A stretch of DNA of 64,000 bases from Pseudomonas sp. J452 (GTDB lineage: Bacteria > Pseudomonadota > Gammaproteobacteria > Pseudomonadales > Pseudomonadaceae), in the NCBI RefSeq assembly GCF_024666525.1, contig NZ_CP088294.1:4340001-4404000 (forward strand), given 5' to 3'. The translations under genes were made by a program, and so were the position numbers. Of this stretch, positions 42,723 through 63,064 are shown in pieces; position 1 is the first letter of the stretch, and the number at the start of each line of letters is the position of its first letter. The notes beneath the pieces are model-generated. The model did no database searches and was not told where the DNA came from. It saw only the letters and a list, made by a program, of their open reading frames with translations.

Positions 42723-42862
42723 GAACCTGTCCACGATCTCCTGGCCGTCGGCCATACCGCGTTAAAAACAGGCTCGGAATGCTCATTTACAGCTCGTAAA
42801 CTCCGCTTCCTCGCCTGTTTTTGCCTTGTCTGGCTCTAGTCCAAAAGATCGTGAACAGGTTC
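42723..42862. mobile_element. TNA-target MITE, 140-bp copy B
   Basis: Ends GAACCTGTCCACGATCTCCT and AAAGATCGTGAACAGGTTC, flanked by TGA on both sides (42720-42722, 42863-42865). Interior in opposite orientation to the copies at 44784 and 60668. Exactly 140 bp like those two. Confidence 0.85.
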
Positions 42863-44783: not shown

Positions 44784-44923
44784 GAACCTGTTTACGATCT
44801 TCTGAATTAGAGCCAGACAAGGCAAAAACAGCCGAGGAAGCGCAGTTTACGAGCTGTAAATGAGCATTCCGAGGCTGTTTTTAACGCGGTATGGCCGACA
44901 GTCAGGAGATCGTAAACAGGTTC
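44784..44923. mobile_element. TNA-target MITE, 140-bp copy C
   Basis: Ends GAACCTGTTTACGATCTTCT and GGAGATCGTAAACAGGTTC, flanked by TCA on both sides (44781-44783, 44924-44926). The right-hand TCA is the complement of the GntR gene's TGA stop. The element fills almost the whole gap between the convergent MBL and GntR genes. Confidence 0.87.
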
Positions 44924-59593: not shown

Positions 59594-60514
59594 ATGTGGT
59601 TCCGCAACCTGCTTGTCTATCGCCTGACCCAGGATCTGCCTTTCGATGCCGAGGCACTGGAGGCTGCACTGGCCACCAAGCTGGCACGTTCCTGCGCCAG
59701 CCAGGAGCTGACCACCTACGGTTTCATCGCGCCCTTCGGCAAAGGCGAAGACGCCCCACTGGTGCACGTCAGCGGTGACTTCCTGCTGGTCGCCGCGCGC
59801 AAGGAAGAACGCATCCTGCCGGGCAGCGTGGTGCGCGACGCCCTGAAGGAAAAGGTCGACCAGATCGAAGCCGAACAGATGCGCAAGGTCTACAAGAAGG
59901 AGCGCGACCAGCTCAAGGACGAGATCATCCTGTCCTTCCTGCCGCGCGCCTTCGTCCGTCGCTCGGCCACCTTCGCCGCCATCGCGCCCAAGCTCGGCCT
60001 GATCCTGGTCGACTCGGCCAGCGCCAAGCGTGCCGAGGATCTGCTCTCGACCCTGCGTGAAGTGCTGGGTTCGCTGCCGGTGCGCCCGCTGTCGGTGAAG
60101 ATGGCGCCAACCGCGACCATGACCGACTGGGTCAAGTCGCAACAAGCCGCGCCGGACTTCTTCGTCCTCGACGAGTGCGAACTGCGCGACACCGCCGAAG
60201 ATGGCGGCGTGGTGCGCTGCAAGCGCCAGGACCTGACCAGCGAGGAAATCCAGCTGCACCTGTCCACCGGTAAGCTGGTTACCCAGCTGTCCCTGGCCTG
60301 GCAGGACAAGCTGTCGTTCATGCTCGACGACAAGCTGGTGGTCAAGCGCCTGCGCTTCGAAGACCTGCTGCAGGACCAGGCTGCACAGGATGGCGGCGAC
60401 GACAATCTCGGCCAGCTGGATGCCAGCTTCACCCTGATGATGCTGACCTTCTGCAACTTCCTGCCAGCACTGTTCGAAGCCCTCGGCGGCGAAGAGGTGC
60501 CCGAGGGAATCTGA
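59594..60514 (+). CDS. rdgC: Recombination-associated protein RdgC
   Basis: The product is 306 residues, the usual length. Begins [26 protein letters not shown] as in known RdgC. Ring-shaped non-specific DNA-binding dimer that limits RecA access; nucleoid associated. Key family segments [35 protein letters not shown] and [18 protein letters not shown] 59594 fits the family N-terminus; upstream in-frame codons run into the tRNA leader. Located after tRNA-Val as in P. aeruginosa. Confidence 0.96.
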
Positions 60515-60604
60515 CCTACCTGACAACTTCTGCAACACCTGCCAGGGCTCGTTCGTCCCCGCGAGCTTGCCCTGCGCAGGGCGATGTGCAAAATAACGCA
60601 CAGC

Positions 60605-60652
60605 GCAAGGACGACCTTGCCACTCCTCGCGAGTGATCACCTGGGACGGCCC
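60605..60652 (+). promoter_or_regulatory. Guanidine-II (mini-ykkC) riboswitch aptamer
   Basis: Two hairpins with ACGR tetraloops closed by GG-CC: P1 GCAAGG-ACGA-CCTTGC (60605-60620) and P2 GGG-ACGG-CCC (60643-60652). The linker contains ACTCC (60622-60626), complementary to GGAGT (60815-60819), which overlaps the ribosome-binding site of the Gdx/SugE gene. This is the expected ON-switch: guanidine joins the two loops and frees the ribosome-binding site. A 140-bp MITE lies between P2 and the ribosome-binding site. Upstream, 60515-60604 contains only short hairpins and the likely promoter. Confidence 0.78.
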
Positions 60653-60667
60653 GCACTTATAGTTTTA

Positions 60668-60807
60668 GAACCTGTTCACGATCTTCTGGACTAGAGCCAG
60701 ACAAGGCAAAAGCAGGCGAGGAAGCGGAGTTTACGAGCTGTAAATGAGCATTCCGAGCCTGCTTTTAACGCAGTATGGCCGACGGCCAGGAGATCGTGGA
60801 CAGGTTC
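60668..60807. mobile_element. TNA-target MITE, 140-bp copy D, inside the riboswitch leader
   Basis: Ends GAACCTGTTCACGATCTTCT and GGAGATCGTGGACAGGTTC, flanked by TTA on both sides (60665-60667, 60808-60810). Interior blocks match copies B and C. The left end is 15 bases after riboswitch stem P2; the right end is 7 bases before the GGAGT ribosome-binding site. Confidence 0.88.
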
Positions 60808-60824
60808 TTAATGCGGAGTAATCC

Positions 60825-61139
60825 ATGTCCTGGCTCATCCTGTTGCTCGCCGGTCTGTTCGAAGTAGGCTGGGCCGTCGGCCTGAAATATACCGACGGCT
60901 TCACCCGCCCCCTCCCTACCCTGCTTACCGTTGGCGCGATGATCGCCAGCCTGGCCCTGCTCGGTCTGGCGATGAAAGAGTTGCCGCTGGGCACCGCCTA
61001 CGCCATCTGGACCGGAGTCGGTGCAGTCGGCACGGTGATCGCCGGGGTCATCCTGTTCGGCGAGTCGATGGCCCTGCTGCGCCTGCTCAGCGTCGGGCTG
61101 ATCGTCGCCGGCTTGCTGGGGCTGAAGCTCAGTCATTGA
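60825..61139 (+). CDS. gdx: SMR-family guanidinium exporter (Gdx/SugE)
   Basis: The product is 104 residues, four TM helices, dual-topology small multidrug resistance fold. Central Glu13 in [15 protein letters not shown] and the [15 protein letters not shown] helix-3 segment are typical of the SugE/Gdx branch that exports guanidinium, rather than the EmrE branch. The upstream guanidine-II aptamer supports this function. ATG 60825 with GGAG at 60815-60818 upstream. Followed by a bidirectional terminator. Confidence 0.92.
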
Positions 61140-61146
61140 GACACAG

Positions 61147-61175
61147 AAAAAAGCCCGCCAATTGGCGGGCTTTTT
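61147..61175. terminator. Bidirectional terminator
   Basis: GCCCGCC/GGCGGGC stem with loop AATT, flanked by six A's (61147-61152) and five T's (61171-61175). Serves the exporter gene on the plus strand and the convergent MFS-acyltransferase gene on the minus strand. Confidence 0.92.
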
Positions 61176-61189
61176 CATGGCGCTGAAAC

Positions 61190-63064
61190 CTAGCGCACGT
61201 CACCCCGCAACTGCGCCACCTGCTCTTGCAGCACCAGGCGCCCGGTATCGGCCGGCATCGGCTGCCCGGCGACCAGAGTGATGCGCGACCAGAAGCGCCT
61301 GAACAGGCCCTTGTGCGGCGCGCGACTGAAGAAGCTGCCCCACAGGCCCTGCAGCGCCATGGGGATCACCGGCACCGGGTTGGCGGCCAGGATGCGCTCC
61401 ACCCCGGCCTTGAACTCGTCGATCTCGCCGCTGGTGGTCAGCTTGCCCTCGGGGAAGATACACACCACCTCGCCATCCGCCAGGTACTGGGCGATGCGCT
61501 GGAAAGCCTGCTCGTAGGTTTTCTCGTCTTCGCTGCGCCCGGCGATCGGCACGGTGCCGGCGGTGCGGAAGATGAAGTTGAGCACCGGCAACTGGTAGAT
61601 CTTGTAGTACATGACGAAGCGCACCGGCCGGCGCACCGCGCCGCCGATCAGCAGCGCATCGACGAAGGACACGTGGTTGCACACCAGCACCGCCGCGCCC
61701 TCGTCCGGAATCGCCTCCAGCCCCTGGTGCTTGACCCGGTACATCGAGTGGCTGAGCAGCCAGATAAGGAAGCGCATGGTGAATTCGGGAACGATCTTGA
61801 AGATGTAGGCGTTGACCGCGATGTTCATCAGCGACACCACCAGGAACAGCTGCGGGATCGACAACCCGGCGACGTTCAGCAACAGCATCGCCACCAGCGC
61901 CGAAACCACCATGAACAGGGCGTTGAGGATGTTGTTGGCGGCGATCACCCGCGCCCGCTCGTTTTCCACGGTGCGCGACTGGATCAGCGCATACAGCGGC
62001 ACGATGTAGAAGCCGCCGAAGATGCCGATGCCAAGGATATCCGCCAGCAGCCACCAGGCCTGGCCTTGCCCCAGCAGGGTCAGCCAGGTGTAGGGCTCGG
62101 CCGCCGTCGGGAAGCCTGCCGAGTGCCACCACAGGAGGATGCCGAAGATCGTCATGCCCATCGAGCCGAACGGCACCAGACCGATCTCCACCTTGCGCCC
62201 GGACAGGCGCTCGCAGAGCACCGAACCCAGCGCGATGCCCACCGAGAACACGGTGAGAATCAGGGTGATGACGGTCTTGTCACCATGCAGCAGGTCCTTG
62301 GCGAAGGCCGGAATCTGCGCCAGGTAGATCGAGCCGATAAACCAGAACCAGGAGTTGCCGAGCAGCGAGCGTGATACCGCCGGCCGCTGGCCGAGGCCTA
62401 GACGCACGGTGGCCCAGGTCTGGCGGAAGATATTCCAGTCCAGCACCAGCTCCGGCAGCGCCGCATGGGAGCGTGGGATGTTGCGGCTGGCCAGGTAGCC
62501 GAGACAGGCGACCAGCACGATGGCAGTCGACACCAGCCCGGCGGAATGACTACCGGACATGATCACCCCGGCGCCGATGGTGCCGGCGAGGATGGCCAGG
62601 AAAGTGCCCATCTCCACCAGGGCGTTGCCGCCGACCAGCTCCTCCTCGCGCAGGGTGGCCGGCAGGATCGAATACTTCACCGGGCCGAACAGCGCCGAGT
62701 GGGTGCCCATGCCAAACAGCGCGAGCAACAGCAACGGCAGGCTGTTGAGAAAGAAACCGGCGGCACCGACCAGCATGATGACGATCTCGGCCAGCTTGAT
62801 CACCCGGATCAGCGCGTCCTTGGCGAACTTCTCGCCAAACTGTCCGCCGAGGGCGGAGAACAGGAAGAACGGCAGAATGAACAGCATGTGGCAGAAGTTG
62901 ACCAGCAGGTTGCCGGTCTTGTCCGAGAACGCCATGTTGAACAGGATGACGAAGATCAGCCCCTGCTTGAACACGTTGTCGTTGAAGGCGCCAAGCAGCT
63001 GCGTGATGAAGAACGGCAGGAAGCGCCGGGTGCCGAGCAGGGCGAATTGCGAGTGTTGGGTCAT
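61190..63064 (-). CDS. MFS transporter fused to a PlsC-type 1-acyl-glycerophosphate acyltransferase
   Basis: The product is 624 residues. About 12 TM helices (residues 10-410, FLPFFITQLLGAFNDNVFKQGL like LplT) followed by a PlsC acyltransferase domain (about 425-620) with NHVSFVD (H-x4-D motif) and FPEGKLT. In enterobacteria LplT flips lysophospholipids inward and Aas re-acylates them; here flippase-like and acyltransferase parts are one polypeptide without the acyl-ACP synthetase part of Aas. A likely role is lysophospholipid repair. ATG 63064 begins the family N-terminus (MTQHSQFALLGTRRFLPFF). Confidence 0.9.
   Translation of the reverse strand: MTQHSQFALLGTRRFLPFFITQLLGAFNDNVFKQGLIFVILFNMAFSDKTGNLLVNFCHMLFILPFFLFSALGGQFGEKFAKDALIRVIKLAEIVIMLVGAAGFFLNSLPLLLLALFGMGTHSALFGPVKYSILPATLREEELVGGNALVEMGTFLAILAGTIGAGVIMSGSHSAGLVSTAIVLVACLGYLASRNIPRSHAALPELVLDWNIFRQTWATVRLGLGQRPAVSRSLLGNSWFWFIGSIYLAQIPAFAKDLLHGDKTVITLILTVFSVGIALGSVLCERLSGRKVEIGLVPFGSMGMTIFGILLWWHSAGFPTAAEPYTWLTLLGQGQAWWLLADILGIGIFGGFYIVPLYALIQSRTVENERARVIAANNILNALFMVVSALVAMLLLNVAGLSIPQLFLVVSLMNIAVNAYIFKIVPEFTMRFLIWLLSHSMYRVKHQGLEAIPDEGAAVLVCNHVSFVDALLIGGAVRRPVRFVMYYKIYQLPVLNFIFRTAGTVPIAGRSEDEKTYEQAFQRIAQYLADGEVVCIFPEGKLTTSGEIDEFKAGVERILAANPVPVIPMALQGLWGSFFSRAPHKGLFRRFWSRITLVAGQPMPADTGRLVLQEQVAQLRGDVR

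Follow-up and report, generated by a model that had tools for sequence, protein, structure and literature searches.

The sugE/gdx leader and its likely aptamer

The window analyzed here is a stretch of 64,000 nucleotides from the genome of Pseudomonas sp. J452, which comprises 4.86 Mb on one contig. Downstream of rdgC, it carries the leader and the coding sequence of sugE/gdx (Table 1). The closest named relatives of the product stem from Pseudomonas, with 98% over 104 aa for P. guryensis. A preliminary description of this DNA had listed two ACGR-capped hairpins, an ACTCC motif, an inserted element, and a GGAGT in front of a Gdx gene. Its coordinates proved to be exact to the base. The displacement of GGAGT by about 143 bases is accounted for precisely by the 140-bp element plus a duplicated TTA, the position of the element between the aptamer and the SD sequence is evident from the letters, and the gene assignment agrees with the SugE match given in Table 1. 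The upstream TTGCCC and CAAAAT boxes, which we take to be the likely native promoter as judged against the consensus, are matched by similar letters at the corresponding position of relatives L039, L040, L044, L045, L046, and L053.

Table 1. Features of the sugE/gdx leader, with positions in the window
Feature	Position	Strand	Evidence
Likely native promoter (TTGCCC, 16 nt, CAAAAT), 5' of aptamer	60567..60594	+	
P1 hairpin GCAAGG-ACGA-CCTTGC, loop ACGA 60611-60614	60605..60620	+	sequence; inside RF01068 match
Linker hairpin CACTC/GAGTG, includes ACTCC 60622-60626	60621..60635	+	sequence; linker alone folds, -5.3 kcal/mol
P2 hairpin GGG-ACGG-CCC, loop ACGG 60646-60649	60643..60652	+	sequence; inside RF01068 match
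P2 3' side and next bases (GCCCGCA), predicted anti-SD strand	60649..60655	+	folds, comparative tests
TTA, left copy of target duplication	60665..60667	+	sequence; TTA single in L039, L040
MITE, 140 bp, inverted ends	60668..60807	+	sequence, genome copies, fold
GCGGAGT within MITE, same letters as SD context 60813-60819	60724..60730	+	sequence
TTA, right copy of target duplication	60808..60810	+	sequence; relatives
SD strand TGCGGAGT; GGAGT at 60815-60819	60812..60819	+	sequence, folds
sugE/gdx, 104 aa, likely SMR-family guanidinium/QAC exporter	60825..61139	+	NCBIfam SugE equivalog NF008512, 145 bits, cut-off 126

The covariance model of Guanidine-II (mini-ykkC, RF01068) matched positions 60603-60654 over its full length (model 1-48). 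The presence of such a match had been anticipated in the preliminary description; its score of 27.2 bits stays under the gathering score of 32 bits. The E value was 0.00087 for the 271-base stretch and 0.0037 genome-wide, where the window leader ranked second of six matches (E ≤ 10). The best of these, with 36.1 bits, lies directly 5' of a gene passing the NCBIfam model for urea carboxylase, and the urea carboxylase of such operons is now described as a guanidine carboxylase (PMC12186494). Relatives L044, L045, and L053 reach the gathering score, which L046 misses with 30.7 bits; the two closest relatives, L039 (P. guryensis) and L040 (Pseudomonas sp. 8AS), were not among the matches at E ≤ 0.01. 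Because the covariance score is below the cut-off, the family call draws in addition on the loops of the ACGR type, on the downstream gene, and on the relatives. As in Guanidine-II switches before sugE/gdx, both hairpins carry ACGR loops (ACGA and ACGG) and a guanidine-related gene, SugE/Gdx, follows. The 22 nt between 60620 and 60643 correspond to the usual linker of about 22 nt and lie within the range of 7-40 nt given in PMC7544219. The leader departs from the class in its low score and in the distance between P2 and the ribosome-binding site, which amounts to 165 nt in the window owing to the insertion. The window leader is thus likely a Guanidine-II riboswitch, for which guanidinium binding and a translational platform, the latter assigned by class, are putative.

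The 140-bp element and its insertion

Inverted ends, 40 places in the genome, a TTA duplication, and empty sites in relatives bear out the MITE-type nature proposed for the 140-bp element in the preliminary description. No gene is present; the only ORFs that touch the element are overlapping minus-strand frames. In the predicted RNA fold, the two ends form 22 pairs without interruption, partly via G-U, and the MITE RNA alone reaches -78.3 kcal/mol (z = -10.3). In P. guryensis and Pseudomonas sp. 8AS, the leader is the same except that it has a single TTA and lacks the element, which directly demonstrates the insertion.

A search at E ≤ 1 gave 46 rows, six of which were second-strand or partial rows, leaving 40 distinct places; 39 of them are 81-100% identical and one is 77% identical. 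Thirty of the 40 copies were fetched, and the counts of end repeats and stop codons rest on these 30. Perfect 3-bp end repeats flank 19 of the 30, and all 19 have the form TNA. Such duplications are, as we presume, reminiscent of IS5-family elements. Matches to the element, often to its core only, were found in 20 of the 38 genomes searched, the own genome counted. The P. fluorescens repeats R0 and R2 are likewise described as short, MITE-like, and bounded by inverted ends (PMC2718517); they measure 89 and 110 bp versus 140 bp, and the likeness is one of description, not of sequence. An end-pattern search for longer relatives counted 112 places, part of which were listed; the one 3.2-kb end-pair inspected held ordinary genes by eye, and a parent transposase was not found there. 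The same inverted ends also occur 224-253 bp apart (e.g. G000:C1:3280870-3281093 and 2978868-2979120), which suggests longer variants of the element.

Two further copies reside in the window, at 42723-42862 on the minus strand (97%) and at 44784-44923 on the plus strand (91%). In 17 of the 30 fetched copies, the element begins immediately behind a stop codon that ends a neighboring ORF on one or the other strand. By the same crude ORF calling, this held for 30 of 529 TNA sites in the window that lie outside ORFs and for 6 of 24 such CTNAG sites. TNA covers TAA and TGA as well as their reverse complements, a C-TNA-G context surrounds 12 of the 19 perfect repeats, and stop codons seem to be preferred targets of the family. 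One minus-strand copy (G000:C1:2819258-2819397, 81%) follows right after the TAA of a substrate-binding-protein gene and precedes a permease gene in an operon for urea/guanidine-type import. Downstream on the same strand as this copy are UAAP genes, the second Guanidine-II element, and the urea/guanidine-type carboxylase gene. The occurrence of two MITE copies in guanidine-linked units may be a coincidence.

GGGACGRCCC with an end of this element 4-30 nt behind it was found in one of 398 Pseudomonas genomes, that of the window, with a pattern that takes in this element family and P2 stems of at least GGG/CCC only; a second case of this MITE behind such a P2 was not present among the 398. The surroundings of 29 copies (± about 1.5 kb) and other fetched stretches, the longer end-pairs L156, L157, and L159-L164 among them, contained no case of the MITE in another structured RNA at the Rfam gathering score. 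The sole match at that score in these stretches was the second Guanidine-II element, 3.3 kb from the nearest copy. A sub-threshold match to Bcj11 at 62288-62397 on the minus strand (43.2 bits, cut-off 49) falls inside a coding region and is found again in relatives, with a passing score of 57.9 bits in L045; it probably reflects conserved coding sequence. The plasmid collection yielded core fragments covering at most 54% of the query, and the phage collection four records that matched the gdx-like part only.

The strand predicted to pair with the SD sequence

Published models disagree on the location of the anti-SD strand in Guanidine-II leaders. For E. coli, it is usually drawn in the linker (PMC9094411, PMC9300104). 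In P. aeruginosa, the P0 helix has mutational support, and mutations in the 5'-flank and at C32/C34, which by our reading of their position belong to the linker, broke the switch ON (PMC9561414). For Gloeobacter violaceus, Huang et al. 2017 suggested that P2 and the ribosome-binding site are overlapped by a stem loop (PMC5486947). The preliminary description had followed the linker version and proposed that the folded element brings ACTCC to GGAGT. These views were compared on the gdx leaders of 80 relative loci. Pairing was scored for 78 of them (L114 and L115 are without two ACGR loops), and the pairing and spacing scores also covered the window leader and that of E. coli, giving 80 leaders. 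The permutation set contained 76 of the 80 relatives (L113, L114, L115, and L117 were dropped), corresponding to 56 leaders after merging identical strings.

The distance from the end of the P2 loop to the SD was 11-25 nt in 77 of 78 relatives (22 nt in both L039 and L040) and 52 nt in one alphaproteobacterium, as compared with 165 nt in the window. Relatives lacking the element thus place P2 close to the SD, as the preliminary description had expected. In the folds of L039 and L040, GGAG of the SD and the preceding bases paired with the P2 3' arm and the bases following it and not with the linker. In the folds of 60 of 78 relatives, the P2 3' side engaged more than half of the SD; the linker did so in 2. 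The corresponding helix predicted for the window joins 60649-60655 with 60812-60819 and leaves A60817 bulged.

Permutation tests on the 56 leaders pointed in the same direction. The mean energy of the P2-arm:SD duplex was -8.13, whereas permuted pairs gave -6.10 (sd 0.22), and none of 5000 permutations was as good. The linker:SD duplex, with a mean of -6.59 versus -6.46, was no better than permuted, 1488 of 5000 being as good. When P2 arm and SD were tested letter by letter in 54 of the 56 leaders, 144 of 216 pairs were formed as compared with 114.6 after shuffling (0/5000). The three pairs beside the SD were formed in 123 of 162 cells; after sliding toward the loop, the number was 52 of 162 at most. 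All three were formed in 34 of the 56 leaders. Different pair types occur at each of these positions (AT, GT, GC, and TA at the first; TA, CG, AT, GC, and GT at the second; CG, AT, and TA at the third). In a thinned set of nine strongly different leaders the excess was weak (14/27 versus 10.5; 313/5000 as good). Because this excess is small, common descent explains part of the P2-arm:SD signal.

In this clade, a role of the linker is consistent with CTCC in the linkers of L039, L040, L044, and L053 and with one constrained ON-state fold of L039, in which the linker pairs with the SD. These four relatives belong to the 6 of 56 distinct leaders that have an exact complement of the SD tetramer in the linker. 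In 49 of the 56, the linker forms a fold of its own. The predicted probability of ACTCC:GGAGT pairing was 0.0 in the window, where ACTC sits in the linker hairpin, and the same stretch gave 0.0 in L039 and L040. ACTCC was therefore not supported as the main anti-SD, nor was its joining to GGAGT by the folded element.

A natural rearrangement in a gdx Guanidine-II leader is also described for E. coli ZX-1 (PMC13064478). There, a 20-bp deletion (-30 to -11), in contrast to the insertion in the window, accompanies constitutive gdx expression, the cause of which the authors only presume. When mapped on the K-12 leader, the deletion takes out P2 together with the CTCC in front of the SD and leaves the linker in place. 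This fits an anti-SD on the P2 side, though the ligand site is deleted too. Judging from the folds and the comparative tests, the main partner of the SD is probably the P2 3' arm together with the bases after P2, rather than the linker ACTCC. Such an arrangement resembles the G. violaceus switch in that P2 and the hairpin hiding the ribosome-binding site are mutually exclusive (PMC5486947). The window leader differs in that the loop of its predicted hairpin holds a transposon, and the comparison of 56 leaders adds support to the pairing.

Possible consequences of the insertion for the switch

A60655-T60812 is the closing pair of the main helix predicted for the OFF state, and the MITE interrupts the 13 bases that separate its strands. 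With the P2 arm as the probable SD partner, the place of the MITE is thus the loop of the hairpin predicted to form from P2 arm and SD. In folds predicted throughout without proteins, the OFF helix had a probability of 0.82 in the window with the MITE, 0.996 in L039, and 1.0 in L040. It was kept (>0.5) when 28 of 29 other natural MITE copies were swapped in and, with the copies reversed, in all 29 cases. Random 140-nt pieces of the window allowed it in 13 of 150 trials and shuffled inserts, which preserved single-base composition only, in 4 of 150. Because the copy swaps kept the helix and random or shuffled inserts rarely did, what matters in the prediction is that the element is self-complementary, rather than which letters it has. 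The earlier idea that the folded element keeps the distant parts together is supported by the predicted OFF helix. Since the MITE is predicted to fold on itself, the OFF hairpin would still form, and the switch is likely stretched rather than broken. The aptamer is intact: from the P1 hairpin onward, 60 of the 63 positions up to the insertion are equal to L039. The GCGGAGT within the MITE was considered as a decoy SD and rejected, since none of the transcript lengths tried gave it any predicted pairing to the P2 arm (0.00).

In the mechanism that we propose, the SD would be hidden by the P2 3' arm and the bases following it, which could not pair inside P2 simultaneously. The MITE stem would close in the loop and let the OFF helix form across 143 extra nt. 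Guanidinium at the P1 and P2 loops would stabilize P2 and free the SD, as in the class mechanism. We consider the chances about even that the hairpin with the MITE in its loop still forms and that the switch works with a weaker OFF state. With 15 or 40 coding bases included, the preference for OFF over ON was 4.4-4.5 kcal/mol in the window and 7.9-10.7 kcal/mol in the two relatives. With folding stopped at the ATG, it was 2.3 kcal/mol in the window, 1.9 in L039, and 8.2 in L040; a weaker OFF state is not seen in comparison with L039 at this point because 2.3 is not lower than 1.9 kcal/mol. The lower predicted OFF bias might render the gene leakier or more sensitive.

The insertion may also act on the timing. 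In equilibrium folds of the growing transcript, P2 of the window stayed at 0.59-0.98 up to 60822, apart from a single low value of 0.22 at 60786; at 60834 it was down to 0.00. P2 of L039 stood at 0.88 with 66 nt transcribed and at 0.03 with 72 nt. As L040 has already lost P2 at 60 nt (0.21), the longer sensing window is clear in comparison with L039 only. Because P2 is favored until the SD is transcribed, the ligand-competent state would be prolonged by the transcription time of 143 nt. It is conceivable, if doubtful, that the MITE has thereby become a working part of the riboswitch, a delay line over 143 nt that afterwards delivers the SD strand to the P2 arm and makes the switch more sensitive.

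A consensus scan of 60500-61200 revealed no promoter inside the MITE; the scan also misses the likely native promoter. No plus-strand terminator was listed by a scan of the same region, which is weak because it missed a visible GC hairpin with a T-run 3' of gdx at about 61149-61178. A T-run after the right end of the MITE was absent by eye.

The strongest rival to a tolerated insertion, unlikely as we judge it, is that the MITE uncouples the gene. RNase III would cut the stem and separate aptamer and SD, and gdx would thus be freed from control and expressed constitutively from a shortened message. The 22 uninterrupted pairs and the stability of the MITE stem speak for this possibility, as do the Correia elements (CREE/nemis) of Neisseria. 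These are MITEs in transcribed leaders that form long RNA stems, some of which, mtrCDE messages included, are cut by RNase III (PMC2649163, PMC10969869). They are unrelated to the window element in sequence and host and involve no riboswitch. Their cleavage is reported to depend on end symmetry, some elements being bound and protected (PMC2649163), and the ends of the window MITE pair partly through G-U.

It is improbable that the switch is dead or the insertion a bystander, with communication between aptamer and SD lost and the gdx level set by the MITE hairpin. The spacing of 165 nt is unique among the 80 leaders scored, the arrangement is confined to one of the 398 genomes, and a hairpin of -78 kcal/mol ending 17 nt 5' of the ATG could hinder or reshape initiation. 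The predicted OFF helix and the two states lying within a few kcal/mol of each other argue against it, and so does the undecayed state of aptamer and SD strand, although a young insertion would look alike. Least probable, and very unlikely in view of the pairing data, is control by the linker ACTCC as the anti-SD with the MITE folded between it and GGAGT.

MITE and Guanidine-II switch are each of a known kind. Among the literature matches listed, which are mostly open-access, we recognized neither their combination nor any report of a MITE or IS lying within the platform of a riboswitch. PMC10969869 goes no further than calling riboswitch formation by MITEs conceivable; it also names BOX elements as carrying potential T-box motifs. 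For most of the Pseudomonas leaders examined, the comparative evidence favors the P2 3' side over the linker as the anti-SD of Guanidine-II. In the usual picture, a riboswitch platform is compact and sensitive to distance. The case of the window leader suggests a rule, according to which a self-folding insertion is tolerated in a hairpin loop and an ordinary one of the same length is not. If the MITE does serve as a delay line, self-complementary elements would be a class of insertions that hairpin-based RNA switches can absorb unbroken.
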